From an actinobacterium SCGC AAA028-A23 (GTDB lineage: Bacteria; Actinomycetota; Actinomycetes; Nanopelagicales; Nanopelagicaceae): 43,263 bases of DNA. Made by a program: the position numbers and the translations under genes. Below the pieces are notes generated by a model that worked only from the letters and a program-made list of their open reading frames with translations, was not told where the DNA came from and searched no databases. Below, in pieces: positions 3,628 through 17,106 of this stretch. The stretch is from positions 1 through 43,263 of the forward strand of contig KB900601.1 in assembly GCA_000378905.1 (NCBI GenBank), written 5' to 3'. Position 1 is the stretch's first letter; each line of letters begins with the position of its first letter.

Positions 3628-4770
3628 ATGAGCAGATTCAGTAAACCAAGAATTAGATCCAAGATCTCTCCATTGATTAGGAGAAAATCAAAGGCAACAG
3701 GCTCTGAGGATTTTGGGGTTGCTGGCAAACCAGTAAATACCTCACACCCATTTTATTTTGGTTTTATGGTCACACTCGGTGCGCTGATTGCGCTAACTAC
3801 GCTGCAAGCGCTGGCATCAGCGAGTGCGGTATTCATATTAATTATCATCTCCTTATTCCTAGCCGCAGGTTTAAATCCAGCTGTTTTATTCTTCCAAAAT
3901 CGAGGCTTAAAGCGGGGGGCAGCAGTAGGTGCTGTGATGGCATCGGTATTGATATTTGTGGCTATTTTTATTGCAATCGCTGTGCCACCACTGCTTGATC
4001 AGGGAAATCAACTATTAGATAACGCTCCGCAATTAATCAAGGATCTAAATAACAACGCCTTTATTAATGATCTCAATAATAGGTATGGGGTCATTGATTC
4101 ATTGCAGAGCAAGATTGATTCAGTTATTCAAAATGGTGAGTTTGCTATTACCGCATTTGGTGGAGTTATCGGGGTTGGTAAAGCGGTTGTCTCTGGCCTG
4201 GTTTCAACCATCACTATCTTGGTTCTAACCCTCTACTTCCTAGCCTCCCTGCCACAGGTAATGAATATTGGGCTTAAGTTTGTGCCAGGCTCAAGAAGAG
4301 ATCGGGTTTCAAAGCTAACAAATGCAATTGTTTCAAGAATTGGCTCCTTTGTTGGCGGACAGGCAATCATTGCCGCCCTTGCTGCCACATTTATTTTGAT
4401 CATGGGATTAATAATTGGCATGCCATACCCAGGACCACTTGCGATGGTGGTTTTAATCTGCGGCTTTATTCCATTAGTTGGCCACTTTATTGGCATGGCA
4501 ATTGTTACCGTAGTCAGCCTGACCGACTCCTTAACAACAGCTGTTATTGCACTCGCTGCATATATTGTTTATGTACAGATTGAAAATTATGTGATCACAC
4601 CAAGAATTATGCGAAAGTCTTTGGCTATCCCAGGGCTTGTGACAATTATTGCCGCACTCCTTGGTGCTTCTTTGCTTGGATTAATTGGCGGATTACTTGC
4701 CGTGCCAATTGCTGCTGCAATCTTGCTTATATTAGATGAGGTTGTTTTTCCAAGGGCTGAACAAAACTAA
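3628..4770 (+). CDS. AI-2E family transporter (PF01594-type membrane protein)
   Basis: 380 residues. After a basic cytoplasmic N-terminus of about 45 residues come hydrophobic segments in the layout of the AI-2E transporter superfamily: a first membrane block near 50-115, a soluble segment rich in Asn/Asp (DNAPQLIKDLNNNAFINDLN), then a C-terminal membrane block with PYPGPLAMVVLICGFIPLVG and the family-typical YVQIENYVITPRIMRKSL. Family members export varied small molecules or act in Na+/H+ exchange, so the substrate is unknown. Its stop codon overlaps the stop of the convergent hydrolase gene by 4 nt. Confidence 0.85.
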   Translation: MSRFSKPRIRSKISPLIRRKSKATGSEDFGVAGKPVNTSHPFYFGFMVTLGALIALTTLQALASASAVFILIIISLFLAAGLNPAVLFFQNRGLKRGAAVGAVMASVLIFVAIFIAIAVPPLLDQGNQLLDNAPQLIKDLNNNAFINDLNNRYGVIDSLQSKIDSVIQNGEFAITAFGGVIGVGKAVVSGLVSTITILVLTLYFLASLPQVMNIGLKFVPGSRRDRVSKLTNAIVSRIGSFVGGQAIIAALAATFILIMGLIIGMPYPGPLAMVVLICGFIPLVGHFIGMAIVTVVSLTDSLTTAVIALAAYIVYVQIENYVITPRIMRKSLAIPGLVTIIAALLGASLLGLIGGLLAVPIAAAILLILDEVVFPRAEQN

Positions 4771-5477
4771 ATCTGCTCTGGTAGTGGCAATCTGCTTGGC
4801 GCAATAACTTTAACAATTTCACTTAACACCAAATTAACCATAGGCTCACCTACCCATAGATGCTTTGCCCCTGCCACATCAATTTGCTTTAAGTTTTTAA
4901 CTCTAGAAAACTTAAGCTTTGCAGCATCTGGCTTTAAGTAATCATCTAACTCAGGGATAAGTGCGGTAATAGCTCTGCCATCTTTAATCCAAAAATCTAA
5001 ATCCTCATCGGTTGTAGATAACATTGGCGGGCTTAGCAGGATTAATTCTTTAATTCTTTTATCTCTGGCATATTGCAAAGCAAGCTCTGTGCCAAAGGAC
5101 CAACCGATTACATATAGATCCTTTATCTTTAATGTTTCAAAACAGTAATCAAGGGCGGCCAACACATCTTGCTCTTCAGATTTGCCATGGTCATACTCAC
5201 CCTCACTTTTTCCTGCCACACTTTCACTGCCTCTTGTGTTAAATCTAATTATTTGTATTCCTGCCATGGCAGGTAATCGATTGGCAGCTTTCTTATATAT
5301 ATGTGAGTCCATCATTCCCCCACCCGATGGGTTGGGGTGGAGCATCAGAAGTGAGCCGGTAATTTCACCGATTGGAGTTGCCACCTCACCAATTAAATTA
5401 AGCCCATCACCGGTTTTGATCGTGAAGGGCGTGCGATTTGCTGGCAAAACAGTTGAAGGGCGGATTAACTCAGGCAC
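4767..5477 (-). CDS. Alpha/beta hydrolase
   Basis: 236 residues with the alpha/beta-hydrolase plan: an early oxyanion region (LMLHPNPSGGG), the nucleophile elbow GWSFG, an acid-bearing segment in the C-terminal third and a probable catalytic histidine in GAKHLWVG. The HPNPSGGGMMDS and FNTRGS pattern is shared with short dienelactone-hydrolase-like and YsgA-like proteins, so a small soluble esterase or lipase is likely. GTG start at 5475-5477; no good ribosome site, but a TAAACT -10 box 6 nt upstream suggests a leaderless message. It is divergent from the aldehyde dehydrogenase and convergent with the AI-2E transporter. Substrate unknown. Confidence 0.8.
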   Translation of the reverse strand: MPELIRPSTVLPANRTPFTIKTGDGLNLIGEVATPIGEITGSLLMLHPNPSGGGMMDSHIYKKAANRLPAMAGIQIIRFNTRGSESVAGKSEGEYDHGKSEEQDVLAALDYCFETLKIKDLYVIGWSFGTELALQYARDKRIKELILLSPPMLSTTDEDLDFWIKDGRAITALIPELDDYLKPDAAKLKFSRVKNLKQIDVAGAKHLWVGEPMVNLVLSEIVKVIAPSRLPLPEQI

Positions 5478-5480
5478 GAA

Positions 5481-5494
5481 AAGAGTTTACTCTT
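5481..5494. promoter_or_regulatory. Overlapping divergent (bidirectional) promoter
   Basis: The 22 nt between two divergent GTG starts contain the palindrome AAGAGT-TT-ACTCTT. On the minus strand TAAACT (5489 to 5484) ends 6 nt before the hydrolase GTG; on the plus strand TACTCT (5488-5493) ends 6 nt before the dehydrogenase GTG. The two -10 boxes therefore overlap, and both messages would be leaderless. Direct transcription-start data are lacking. Confidence 0.5.
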
Positions 5495-5499
5495 ACCTG

Positions 5500-6963
5500 G
5501 TGAGCCAAAGCGCGGTATTTGATAAGTGTGATCCTAAAACAGGTGAGGTTATTGCACAGTATAAAAACTTCTCACCCGATGAGGTCTTTGCCTTAGTAGA
5601 TGCTGCAAAAGTAGTTAGTAATCGTTGGCAGATGTTGGGCTTTGTTACCCGCAAGAAAGTTTTGCTTAAGTGGGCAGCTTATTTAACGAAGAATCAAGAA
5701 GAGATTGCACAATTGGTTGCAACTGAGTGTGGCAAGCCAATTGGAGATGCATCCTTAGAGGTTTCAATTGCAATTGATCACCTGGCTTGGGCGGCAAATC
5801 ATGCTGAGCAGATTATGCAAAAACAGGATCGCCCTGCTGGCCTAATGATGTTTAACATGAAGGCACAGGTACAAAGATCTCCCCTTGGTGTTGTTGGCGT
5901 AATTGGTCCATGGAATTATCCAATCTTTACACCAATGGGCTCAATTGCTTATGCACTTGCTGCTGGTAATACCGTTGTATTTAAACCATCTGAGTTCACA
6001 CCAGGTGTTGGCAAGTGGCTCTCTGATTCATTTGCTCAGATTGCACCATTTGAAAATATATTTACAACAGTTACAGGATTGCCAGATACTGGTAAAGCAT
6101 TAACCCAATCAAAGGTTAATAAGATCTCTTTTACTGGCTCTACAAAAACAGCTAAGAAGGTTGCAGAAAGTTGCGCAGCATCGATGATTCCAGTTGTGCT
6201 TGAGTGTGGTGGTAAAGATCCAGTTATTGTTGCAAAGGATGCTGATCTAAAGCTTGCCGCTGAATACGCTCTTTGGTCTGCGATGGCAAATGCTGGTCAA
6301 TCTTGTATTGGGGCAGAAAGAGTCTATGTTGTTGAATCTGTTGCTGATGAGTTTATTGAGATCATCACCAAGATGGCTAAAAAGATTGAGGTTGGTAAAG
6401 ATTACGGCCCAGCCACAATGCCATCTCAATTAAAGGTTATTCAATCTCATTTAGATGATGCCAAAGCAAGTGGGGCAAAGTTTTTAGTTGGCGGAGCAGA
6501 CTCTGTTAAAGGTGCATTTGTTGAGCCGGTAATCATGGTTGAAGTTCCAGAAAGTTCAACTGCCATGACACAAGAGACCTTTGGGCCAACTCTTGCAATA
6601 AATCGAGTCATTGATACCGATGAGGCAATCAAGTTATCTAATGCCAGTAATTACGGCTTAGCTGCTGCGGTCTTTTCAAAACGAGATGGTGAAAAAATTG
6701 CTACCCAATTAGCTTGCGGAATGGTTTCAATTAACTCAGTATTTTTATTTGCCGCCGTTGCATCTGTGCCATTTGGTGGGGTTAAAGATTCAGGTTATGG
6801 CCGCATCCATGGCGCTGAAGGCCTACTTGAATACACCTACGCCAGAACTATTGTTAAACCTAGATTTAATATTCCGCTCAAGTTCACATCCTTTAAGCGA
6901 ACAAGGCTTTCTGAAAAAGTACTAGTAACTTTGATTAAAAGACTTCACGGAAAGAGAAAGTAA
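5500..6963 (+). CDS. NAD(P)-dependent aldehyde dehydrogenase
   Basis: 487 residues of the aldehyde dehydrogenase superfamily. Signature residues in order: the cofactor-site PWNYP (Asn139), KPSE (about 163), the Rossmann loop FTGSTKTAKK (211-220), the general base in LECGGKD (Glu235) and the catalytic cysteine in NAGQSC (Cys269). It has a basic tail (KRTRLSEKVLVTLIKRLHGKRK is partly amphipathic) that might associate with membranes. The frame is open further upstream, but GTG at 5500 is chosen because homology begins there (FDKCDPKTGEV) and a -10 box lies 6 nt before it. It oxidises an aldehyde to an acid; overall it looks closest to the succinate-semialdehyde / fatty-aldehyde branch, but the substrate is unproved. 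Confidence 0.85.
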   Translation: MSQSAVFDKCDPKTGEVIAQYKNFSPDEVFALVDAAKVVSNRWQMLGFVTRKKVLLKWAAYLTKNQEEIAQLVATECGKPIGDASLEVSIAIDHLAWAANHAEQIMQKQDRPAGLMMFNMKAQVQRSPLGVVGVIGPWNYPIFTPMGSIAYALAAGNTVVFKPSEFTPGVGKWLSDSFAQIAPFENIFTTVTGLPDTGKALTQSKVNKISFTGSTKTAKKVAESCAASMIPVVLECGGKDPVIVAKDADLKLAAEYALWSAMANAGQSCIGAERVYVVESVADEFIEIITKMAKKIEVGKDYGPATMPSQLKVIQSHLDDAKASGAKFLVGGADSVKGAFVEPVIMVEVPESSTAMTQETFGPTLAINRVIDTDEAIKLSNASNYGLAAAVFSKRDGEKIATQLACGMVSINSVFLFAAVASVPFGGVKDSGYGRIHGAEGLLEYTYARTIVKPRFNIPLKFTSFKRTRLSEKVLVTLIKRLHGKRK

Positions 6964-6965
6964 AA

Positions 6966-8114
6966 CTACAAGCAGTTTGCAAGCCGATCAAAGGCCTCAG
7001 TAATAATCTCAGGGCTAGTTCCAAAATTAAGTCTTACAAAACTCTTATGTTTTGGTCCATATAAAACTCCACCATTAACCGCTAACTTACCTTTTTCTAA
7101 GATCGCAGCAGATGGATCCTCACCCAGTCCTAAAGCAGATAGATCAAGCCAGGCAAGATAGCCAAAATCTGGAATTCGATACTTAATTGCCGGAGCTTTG
7201 GTAGCAATTAATTTTTCAACCAATTTACGGTTTTGATCTAAAGTAATTAAAACTCCATCTAGCCAATCTACTGACTCTGCATAAGCAGCGGTTGAGGCAA
7301 CTGCGCCAAATAATGAAGCACGCCAGGTAACAGCAGGTGGCATTACGTTAATCCGCTCCTGCAATTTGGTTGATTCAGTAATAATTACTGCACATTTAAG
7401 GCCTGCAAGATTAAAGGATTTACTAGCGCTAGTTATGGTTATTCCAACCTCTTTAGCATTTTGGCTTACATTTAAAAATGGTGTAAAAGTTTTTGCATCA
7501 TAGGTAAGGGGTGCGTGGATCTCATCACTTAAAATTACTACCTGATACTTCTTTGCAAGATCTGCTAACTCTGATAATTGATCCTTGCTAAAAATTGCCC
7601 CAACTGGGTTATGTGGATGACACAGGATGTGAACTTTGACGCCATTTTGATACTCTTTTTCAATTGCAGCTAAATCTAATTTGTAACTTAAATTATCTTC
7701 ACTAAGTGGGGTATCCACTGTTGCGGCATGAACCTCTGAGACCCATCGCCAAATGTTTTCATAGACAGGTGAGTTAAGCATTACCTTCTCACCCGGCTTA
7801 ATCAATGTCCGCATGATCTCAACAATGCCAACGCCAACATCGGTGGCTATTCTCATTTGCTTGGTATCAACCTGCCAGCCCCAACGCTTTGCTGAAAAGT
7901 TTGCAAAGGCATCAAATAACTCTGGGAATGGTCCTAGGTAACCGGTGTCAGATCTTTCCACCATATCTGTTAATGCAGTTTTTATCTTTGGCGCAGTTGG
8001 AAAATCCATTTCAGCAACTGGAAGTGGCAATACATCAGAAGGAAAGTGTCGCCATTTAACGCTTTTTCGTTTGCGTAATTCAGCAAGTGTTAACGCACGG
8101 ACAGCTTCGGCCAT
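6966..8114 (-). CDS. MalY/PatB family PLP enzyme (aminotransferase / cystathionine beta-lyase type)
   Basis: 382 residues, fold-type I PLP enzyme. Family marks: WRHFPSDVLPLPVAEMDF (about 21-38), HNPVG (Asn169), SDEIH (Asp197 pairs with the pyridine nitrogen) and the Schiff-base lysine in SASKSFNLAGLK (Lys232). This combination is typical of MalY/PatB proteins, which cleave cystathionine or cysteine (C-S beta-lyase) or act as aminotransferases. ATG start at 8112-8114, 30 nt after the SDR stop, so the two are probably cotranscribed. It converges on the aldehyde dehydrogenase with a 2-nt gap. Its metabolic link to the neighbouring SDR is unclear. Confidence 0.85.
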   Translation of the reverse strand: MAEAVRALTLAELRKRKSVKWRHFPSDVLPLPVAEMDFPTAPKIKTALTDMVERSDTGYLGPFPELFDAFANFSAKRWGWQVDTKQMRIATDVGVGIVEIMRTLIKPGEKVMLNSPVYENIWRWVSEVHAATVDTPLSEDNLSYKLDLAAIEKEYQNGVKVHILCHPHNPVGAIFSKDQLSELADLAKKYQVVILSDEIHAPLTYDAKTFTPFLNVSQNAKEVGITITSASKSFNLAGLKCAVIITESTKLQERINVMPPAVTWRASLFGAVASTAAYAESVDWLDGVLITLDQNRKLVEKLIATKAPAIKYRIPDFGYLAWLDLSALGLGEDPSAAILEKGKLAVNGGVLYGPKHKSFVRLNFGTSPEIITEAFDRLANCL

Positions 8115-15579: not shown

Positions 15580-17106
15580 TTAGTTAATAGCTTTTGTACT
15601 TCGAACGCCATTCACTACCCGCTCAATACCGTATGGATTGGCGTTTTGTAGCTCTGCCGGCAATAAATTATCTGGAAAGTTTTGGTAAACAACTGGGCGC
15701 ACAAATCGGTATAAAGCATCTAATCCAACAGAGGTTGTGTGTGATGATGATGCTGGCCATTGCCCACCATGGTTTTGTGCAGCTGTAACAGAAACTGAGG
15801 TTGGAAAACCATTCCAAATTAATCTACCAGCCAATTGAGTTAAGGCCGAGACAAGATCTTTTACATCCTCATTACTTCCGGCATGAACCGCAGATGCAAG
15901 TTGTCCACTCATCGCTTTTGCGATACTTAAATACTGACTAAAATCCGCTCTAATGATTACTGAGGTTGGACCAAAGTGCTCCTCAAGTAAATCATCATGA
16001 TTTTTTACATCCTCCCAATCAACTACAAAAATACTAGGAGTTACGCCGTAACCATCTGGATTTGTTACTCCTGTTAAAACCTTAACTCCCTTTGCTTTGC
16101 TTATTGAAGATATTGCCTCGGTGAATCGGGTTGCAATTCCTTTGTTTAATAGTGGTCCGACTTTTTGCTCTGCAACATGAGATTGCACCTGGGCAATAAA
16201 TTTATCCCCTGCTGAATCTTTTGGAACAATCATTATTCCTGGCTTTGTACAAAACTGACCAGAGCCAAGTAATGCAGAATCCATTGCAGCCTTAGCCAAC
16301 TCTTCTGCTTTTTCAACAAGCGCGCCCGGGGTGAAGAAAACTGGATTTAATGATCCCATTTCAGCAAAAACTGGAATTGGAATCTCTCGCTCTTGCGCTA
16401 ACTTAATTAATAATTTTCCGACTAAACCAGAGCCGGTAAAACCAATTGCAGTAATTTGTGGATCCTTTGCCAACCAATGAGTAATCTCCGGATTAACACC
16501 TTGCACAAGTGCAAAGATTTCCTTTGGCAGCCCTTGTGATTGGATTGCTTTAACAATTGCCTGATACACAAGTTGGCAGGTATTTGGATGTGATGGATGA
16601 GCCTTAACAACTACTGGGCAACCTGCAGCTAATGCTGATGCAGTGTCACCACCTGCAACTGAGAAAGCTAATGGAAAGTTTGATGCTGCAAATATTGATA
16701 CCACACCTAGTGATTGTTGGGATTTGCGAAGATCTGGCCTGGCAACTGGTTGGAAGTTTGCATCTGCTAAATCAATTATTGGTAGCAAGTGTCCACCGGT
16801 TTTAACTAGATCAGCAAAAGCGCGGATTTGAATTACTGTGCGCATCACTTCACCTGTTACTCGTGGAAGTGGAAGTCCGGTCTCTAGATGAGAGATTTCT
16901 GCAAGCTTTTCTTTCTCACTTTCAATTGAATCTGCAATCGCATTTAGAAGAGCTGCTCGTTGAGTTGGAGTTGTTACGGCAAATACTTTCTTAACTTTCT
17001 CCGCAGCTGCAATTGCTGCACTGACCTCTTCAAAAGTATTTTCGTTAATTGGCTGACCAACTGGTTGACCAGTTGCTGGGTTGGTGGCTGTGAAAGTTTT
17101 GCTCAT
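15580..17106 (-). CDS. 2,5-dioxovalerate (2-oxoglutarate semialdehyde) dehydrogenase-type ALDH
   Basis: 508 residues. Aldehyde dehydrogenase with ASNFPLAFSVAGGDTASALA (141-160), VVKAHPSHP (166-174), the cofactor loop FTGSGLVG (223-230), base Glu249 in FAEMGSLNPVF and catalytic Cys286 in GSGQFC. This set is that of the KGSADH subfamily, which oxidises 2-oxoglutarate semialdehyde to 2-oxoglutarate, the last step of non-phosphorylative pentose or hexarate oxidation. It sits beside the aldonate dehydratase and FAH-family enzyme that would supply the substrate. The ATG is preceded by TATAGT with a 6-nt gap and no ribosome site, so a leaderless message is likely. Confidence 0.85.
   Translation of the reverse strand: MSKTFTATNPATGQPVGQPINENTFEEVSAAIAAAEKVKKVFAVTTPTQRAALLNAIADSIESEKEKLAEISHLETGLPLPRVTGEVMRTVIQIRAFADLVKTGGHLLPIIDLADANFQPVARPDLRKSQQSLGVVSIFAASNFPLAFSVAGGDTASALAAGCPVVVKAHPSHPNTCQLVYQAIVKAIQSQGLPKEIFALVQGVNPEITHWLAKDPQITAIGFTGSGLVGKLLIKLAQEREIPIPVFAEMGSLNPVFFTPGALVEKAEELAKAAMDSALLGSGQFCTKPGIMIVPKDSAGDKFIAQVQSHVAEQKVGPLLNKGIATRFTEAISSISKAKGVKVLTGVTNPDGYGVTPSIFVVDWEDVKNHDDLLEEHFGPTSVIIRADFSQYLSIAKAMSGQLASAVHAGSNEDVKDLVSALTQLAGRLIWNGFPTSVSVTAAQNHGGQWPASSSHTTSVGLDALYRFVRPVVYQNFPDNLLPAELQNANPYGIERVVNGVRSTKAIN

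Follow-up and report, generated by a model that had tools for sequence, protein, structure and literature searches.

How can 22 nucleotides serve two divergent genes, and what brought the two so close together? The question arises in the window, i.e. the whole 43,263-nt stretch of DNA analysed here, from what we take to be an acI-type freshwater actinobacterium (genome of 833 kb in 64 contigs, 69% complete). The minus strand encodes an alpha/beta hydrolase-fold protein of 236 aa at 4767-5477 (Pfam PF00561, Abhydrolase_1, E 5.8e-9), whose GTG start codon occupies 5477-5475. The plus strand encodes an aldehyde dehydrogenase (ALDH) of 487 aa at 5500-6963 (Pfam PF00171, Aldedh, E 5.8e-129), also with a GTG start. 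The closest NCBIfam model of the latter is the succinic semialdehyde dehydrogenase PRK09407 (NF006916), at 372.7 bits and under the cut-off of 521. The spacer at 5478-5499 (22 nt) is the entire intergenic region between the two start codons. On the outer sides, the stop codons of the AI-2E transporter gene and of the hydrolase overlap by 4 nt (4767-4770), and the ALDH and PatB-like C-S lyase genes end 2 nt apart (6963-6966).

Two predicted leaderless boxes in one spacer

The earlier note described two divergent GTG starts 22 nt apart, with a TANNNT box on each strand that lies 6 nt from its start and overlaps the other box by two bases. This geometry is borne out by the sequence. The hydrolase -10 box, TAAACT, runs from 5489 down to 5484 on the minus strand and ends 6 nt before the GTG at 5477. 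The ALDH -10 box, TACTCT, occupies 5488-5493 on the plus strand and ends 6 nt before the GTG at 5500. Two bases, T5488 and A5489, are common to both. The GTG at 5477 is the first possible hydrolase start, because an in-frame TAA lies upstream at 5489-5487. The ALDH frame stays open upstream of its GTG (there is a TTG at 5182), and an ATG stands at the position of this GTG in all 17 other same-genus copies read. A Shine-Dalgarno sequence is absent from the stretches inspected upstream of both starts, and both genes are predicted to be leaderless. The simple gene caller missed the hydrolase, which it dropped because the longest ALDH open reading frame overlaps it; the window locus was therefore judged separately from the gene-caller lists.

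These lists, made with a simple codon-usage caller that was not trained, covered 400-kb samples of two relatives, one of the same genus (G001) and one of genus g16 (G091). In the first sample TANNNT peaks at a gap of 6 nt before the start codon (59 of 335 genes), each of the other gaps from 0 to 30 nt accounting for 1-16 genes (16 at gap 7). The second gives 33 of 318 genes at gap 6 and 16 at gap 7, and the window itself 4 of 36 at gap 6. The aligned boxes display a weak TA(G/A)(G/A)CT preference, T and A after the box, and a purine at +1 owing to the start codon. Both TAAACT and TACTCT are among the commoner boxes (4/68 each). No general -35 was seen in the 68 and 42 aligned upstream regions of leaderless promoters. 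Sequences of four bases resembling a Shine-Dalgarno are rarer upstream of genes with a box at gap 6 or 7 (9/75 and 2/49) than upstream of genes without one (81/260 and 84/269). Judged by these patterns, a TANNNT box 6 nt before the start codon is the standard arrangement of predicted leaderless genes in this lineage. Elsewhere in the window, the AI-2E gene at 3628 (box TAAAAT) and a minus-strand gene at 17106 (box TATAGT) have leaderless-looking starts whose boxes are kept in the genus.

Conservation of the box pair across the family

We followed the locus through the family in a set of one genome per species, several of them incomplete. The ALDH was matched at E <= 1e-60 in 194 of 201 family genomes. 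Its 5' side was read in 109 of these, window included, with one best match each; the loci were picked among the matches listed, by identity and contig room, and rows without the 5' end were left out. The hydrolase/ALDH pair is divergent in 108 of the 109, the exception being G146, where the sole hydrolase match is C-terminal and in the other orientation. The double box with a shared TA (decamer ANNNTANNNT, spacer of 22-24 nt) is present in 75 of the 109 genomes; starts were chosen by proximity to a box, which biases this count towards finding boxes. All genomes read have it in six genera (g1 18/18, g6 3/3, g7 14/14, g10 4/4, g13 1/1, g15 24/24), and this total of 64/64, like the gap-6 peak above, does not depend on the choice of starts alone. 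It is partial in two other genera (g16 6/16, g17 5/10). Another 25 genomes have separate boxes in a longer spacer (g2 1/1, g3 13/13, g4 1/1, g16 10/16), and nine have neither form (g8 3/3, g12 1/1, g17 5/10). The separate-box genomes retain the divergent pair with spacers up to about 50 nt. Since a TANNNT is retained 6-7 nt from either start in these longer spacers, both genes would use leaderless boxes.

Among the 75 double-box relatives, the spacer measures 22 nt in 58, 23 in 15 and 24 in two, with box-to-start gaps (hydrolase, ALDH) of 6,6 in 58, 7,6 in 15 and 8,6 in two. The hydrolase box is TAAACT in 69 and TAGACT in six; the ALDH box is TAGTCT in 43, TACTCT in 25, TACAGT in six and TAACCT in one. 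Over 64 sequences of the six genera, the mean entropy is 0.21 bit in the decamer, compared with 0.99 in the left (hydrolase) flank and 1.47 in the right (ALDH) flank. The NNN bases of three control leaderless promoters in the window are likewise kept within the genus, and this weakens NNN conservation as a proof of double use, since single leaderless boxes keep them too. On a hydrolase tree (107 of the 109 rows, two short ones being dropped; 155 columns, promoter-proximal residues excluded), the promoter state requires at least 4 changes, a minimum that comes from a quick method with many weak branches and cannot separate gain from loss.

The boxes had been attributed to a 14-bp palindrome supplying one on each strand. 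The window does contain an imperfect 14-bp inverted repeat at 5481-5494 (AAGAGT-TT-ACTCTT, with 6-bp arms and a non-symmetric TT centre). The dyad of this repeat is at 5487.5, 1 bp to the left of that of the shared-TA box pair (5488.5). Because the dyads are 1 bp apart, the palindrome does not create the boxes by symmetry, and the attribution fails: the boxes are not mutual mirror images in it. The exact 14-mer occurs in 16 of the 75 double-box loci (15/18 in the own genus and 1/1 in g13). The own genus has AAGAGTTTACTCTT in 15 of 18 genomes and AGCAGTTTACTCTT in the remaining three, where an arm is broken and both boxes are intact. In the core sequences of relatives, mostly TAAGTTTAGTCTTA in g15 and AGAGTCTAGTCTTT in g16, the boxes stay and the arms vary; the symmetry centre shifts relative to the boxes from genus to genus. 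Conservation in relatives, a check set beforehand, thus gave a split answer: the box pair is kept and the exact palindrome is not. The palindrome as a functional unit was ruled out, the arms not being conserved while the boxes are. Across the sequences compared, the conserved object is the box pair rather than the palindrome.

Could the repeat nonetheless be an operator, through which a transcription factor controls both genes, as repressor or activator? Its presence in most same-genus genomes and the single occurrence of AGTNTANTCTT in the own genome speak for such a site, as does the precedent of the LysG operator, which the passages of PMC5648196 on lysG-lysE describe as an inverted repeat at overlapping divergent promoters in M. 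tuberculosis. Against such a site, the symmetry centre shifts from genus to genus; the arms are lost outside the genus and g13 although the boxes are kept, and they are broken in 3 of 18 genomes even within the genus. None of the four proteins scanned (hydrolase, ALDH, AI-2E transporter and PatB-like) is a regulator. We regard an operator as quite improbable. In the own genome, the one occurrence of AGTNTANTCTT is at the window locus, versus 5 and 9 for the backwards control; this scarcity may reflect composition, or else strong symmetric boxes being avoided at other places.

Loci that have lost one partner offer a further view of the box pair. Three genomes of g16 (G079, G097 and G151) have no ALDH match at E <= 1e-60, and at their loci (L203, L206 and L205) the hydrolase is co-directional, behind a 115-aa open reading frame without a Pfam match. 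The hydrolase box, TAGACT or TAGAAT, is kept 7 nt before the ATG (two loci were read out and the third has the same upstream stretch). The A completing the opposite box is lost, and with it the decamer partner. As sequences, these loci fit one box per gene.

The two directions are not equivalent. A -35-like element, TTAACT, lies at 5465-5470 on the plus strand, 17 nt upstream of the ALDH -10 box (-23 to -18 from T5488), within hydrolase codons 3-5 (Glu3-Leu4-Ile5, GAG-TTA-AT(N)). No -35 can be recognised for the hydrolase direction. Where the residue is kept, Glu3 is GAG in 62/62 and Leu4 is TTA in 60/61 among the 64 genomes of the six genera, and these codon counts are trustworthy, while column counts are shifted by indels or residue changes (two rows with 24-nt spacers and some g6 rows). 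For comparison, the top-codon frequency averages 0.51 over 65 conserved degenerate columns, and codon usage in the window is 34% for TTA and 51% for GAG. Of the 33 adjacent pairs in this set, none is as codon-constrained as Glu3-Leu4; the pair also tops the 36 of g7, ties for first place among the 39 of g15, and is one of three at ceiling among 89 pairs in g1. TTAACT is absent from all 11 double-box genomes of g16 and g17. From this codon constraint, TTAACT is read as a putative ALDH -35 embedded in the codons of the neighbouring gene; alternatively, the constraint may be a translation-start effect on the hydrolase mRNA. The promoter layout proposed in the earlier note is supported as far as the boxes go; the note overlooked this ALDH-side element, and also the recurrence at other gene pairs described below.

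An element on the ALDH side only might also mean that a single direction is driven, the other box arising as a side effect of -10 symmetry and transcription of the second gene starting inside its neighbour. According to passages of PMC10268837 on such promoters, -10 elements are nearly symmetric and frequently initiate in both directions even with no gene to be served. This reading is very improbable given that in 75 genomes both boxes keep their T-7 at 6-8 nt from the start codon of their gene, and that the longer-spacer genomes keep a box at 6-7 nt for each gene.

Recurrence and probable origin of the overlap

Divergent pairs within 120 nt in which each start has a box at 6-7 nt number 8 of 42 in the G001 sample and 9 of 37 in that of G091. 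The boxes overlap in two and one of these, respectively, always through a shared TA. Each genome contributes the hydrolase/ALDH locus to these; the remaining overlapping pair is metF/polyprenyl synthase (Pfam MTHFR and polyprenyl_synt). In the family, where 30 metF/polyprenyl synthase loci were fetched of 60 matching genomes (three without metF in the stretch), a shared-TA box is present in 21 of the 27 loci with both genes, own genome included (G000:C3 about 4237-4264, seen in L229 and L256; L097:4759-4783). Outside the family, the shared TA is found in 1 of 20 divergent pairs (L270), and in several others the boxes are separate, the spacers measuring 40 to 101 nt; the class-level set behind these counts comprised 30 loci of 72 matching genomes, of which 26 were divergent, and six of its seven shared cases were family members. 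A third pair, of a GT2-type glycosyltransferase and an RmlD-like reductase (L165:2006-2029, in G001), is divergent across a 22-nt spacer with the core AGTTTACTCTTTCC, almost the same as that of hydrolase/ALDH. The sequence AGTTTACTCTTNCC occurs at 22 places in 25 genomes of the genus, i.e. this case and 21 of the hydrolase/ALDH kind (AGTTTACTCTTACC), which were assigned to that locus by inspection only where the locus was read.

How readily would such an overlap arise by chance? When divergent intergenic DNA is Markov-shuffled, 0.6% of positions carry ANNNTANNNT. The pattern with gaps 6/6 is not enriched genome-wide, its counts being close to the backwards control in 13 genomes of the genus (3 versus 2 in the own genome); with gaps 10/10 they are at or below control in 13/13. 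Eight pattern hits were viewed in context: one is a true divergent pair (L165), two have a start on the minus strand only (L166 and L169), and five lie in or beside other reading frames (L167, L168 and L170-L172). From these counts, the pattern in a single genome is mildly unlikely, and it is conservation that lifts it above chance. Among the loci compared, the shared-TA form is rare but recurrent.

Taking the comparisons together, we consider it very likely that two leaderless mRNAs are driven from the 22-nt spacer, acting as a minimal bidirectional promoter whose layout most likely stems from streamlining. The earlier proposal of a bidirectional promoter with overlapping -10 boxes and two leaderless genes hence gains comparative support, from the 75 of 109 genomes and from the lineage-wide spacing of TANNNT and start codon. 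The two opposite-strand boxes would share one TA step, and the T-7 of each, 6 nt from its start codon, would place +1 at the G of each GTG, predicting start sites at 5477 and 5500, 23 bp apart. The sigma factor may bind the two boxes in either orientation, and the putative -35 in the hydrolase frame would help the ALDH direction. One polymerase at a time would open the DNA, because both open complexes need the same base pairs, a physical exclusion. Streamlining would have shortened a divergent leaderless pair until its boxes overlapped, and purifying selection would have held both boxes since then. The layout was probably fixed in this way: streamlining is favoured as the cause because of the separate-box relatives and of the longer metF/polyprenyl synthase spacers outside the family. 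The overlap itself seems dispensable for the pair, since 34 of the 109 genomes lack the shared form.

The same exclusion might instead be what selection has acted on, the overlap being a regulatory device that imposes alternating or fixed-ratio expression of hydrolase and ALDH. The exact retention of the shared-TA form for a long time in six genera would agree with this, and so would its recurrence at metF/polyprenyl synthase. We find it rather doubtful. A quarter-hundred genomes (25/109) keep the divergent pair with separate boxes, and compaction alone accounts for short spacers in small genomes. In addition, negative supercoiling between divergent genes would favour co-activation. Still broader is the proposal that Nanopelagicaceae have a recurrent promoter class, ANNNTANNNT with starts 6-8 nt away, that is kept because polymerases competing at the shared TA set the product ratio. 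We think this unlikely; if true, one intergenic region of about 22 nt would serve two leaderless genes at several unrelated pairs. The locus suggests how short a divergent intergenic region can get at the limit: 22 nt would hold two complete leaderless promoters, with the putative -35 of one lying in the codons of the other. Shared boxes, separate boxes and loci with one partner lost form a natural series in which an effect of exclusion could be told from a by-product of streamlining.

Relation to known promoters

The passages of Middlemiss et al. 2023 (PMC10268837) on bidirectional promoters define these by divergent start sites 7-25 bp apart. They attribute such starts to overlapping -10 elements, most common between divergent chromosomal genes (also reporting Warman et al. 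2021), and give as the commonest geometry 18 bp, TANNNTA, with -7T and -11A reciprocal. Like the promoters described there, the hydrolase/ALDH spacer has -10 elements on opposite strands with reciprocal key positions (T5488-A5489), and its start distance of 23 bp falls within 7-25 bp, the starts being predicted here and mapped in that work. It has -11A and -12T reciprocal (ANNNTANNNT) instead of the 18-bp TANNNTA. A further difference from the class as those passages present it is that both predicted starts fall on start codons, in an arrangement that several genera conserve. Among the loci read, TANNNTA was seen in one relative, G043 of g3 (L161), whose hydrolase/ALDH spacer carries TAGGCTA in the 18-bp type of geometry, with gaps 7/7 and no shared-TA decamer.

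Actinobacterial leaderless promoters are described in passages of Cortes et al. 2013 (PMC3898074) and Zheng et al. 2011 (PMC3160421) as lacking a -35 consensus and carrying TANNNT some 6-7 nt ahead of the start codon, in a fifth to a quarter of genes; in M. tuberculosis this logic was shown by mapped start sites (PMC3898074). Hydrolase and ALDH both have the sequence features of such promoters, a TANNNT at 6 nt and no Shine-Dalgarno. A figure legend in PMC3898074 calls juxtaposed divergent promoters common in M. tuberculosis and gives prpD/Rv1129c as both leaderless. The descriptions of leaderless promoters in these portions of the two papers include no two leaderless starts on one TA step, nor its conservation. 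The open-licence literature searched yielded no case of one TA step common to two leaderless starts with conservation across genera.

The lysG-lysE region of M. tuberculosis, as described in the relevant passages of PMC5648196, also combines overlapping divergent promoters with an inverted repeat, and one of the lysE promoters is leaderless. It differs from hydrolase/ALDH in its 108-bp intergenic region, in its LysG operator, and in that its overlapping promoters are not both leaderless. The window locus does not resemble this operator-controlled type, the exact repeat being present in 16 of 75 double-box loci and no regulator being encoded among the four neighbouring proteins scanned. The predicted bidirectional promoter is of a known kind, and its leaderless shared-TA form is a variant of it.
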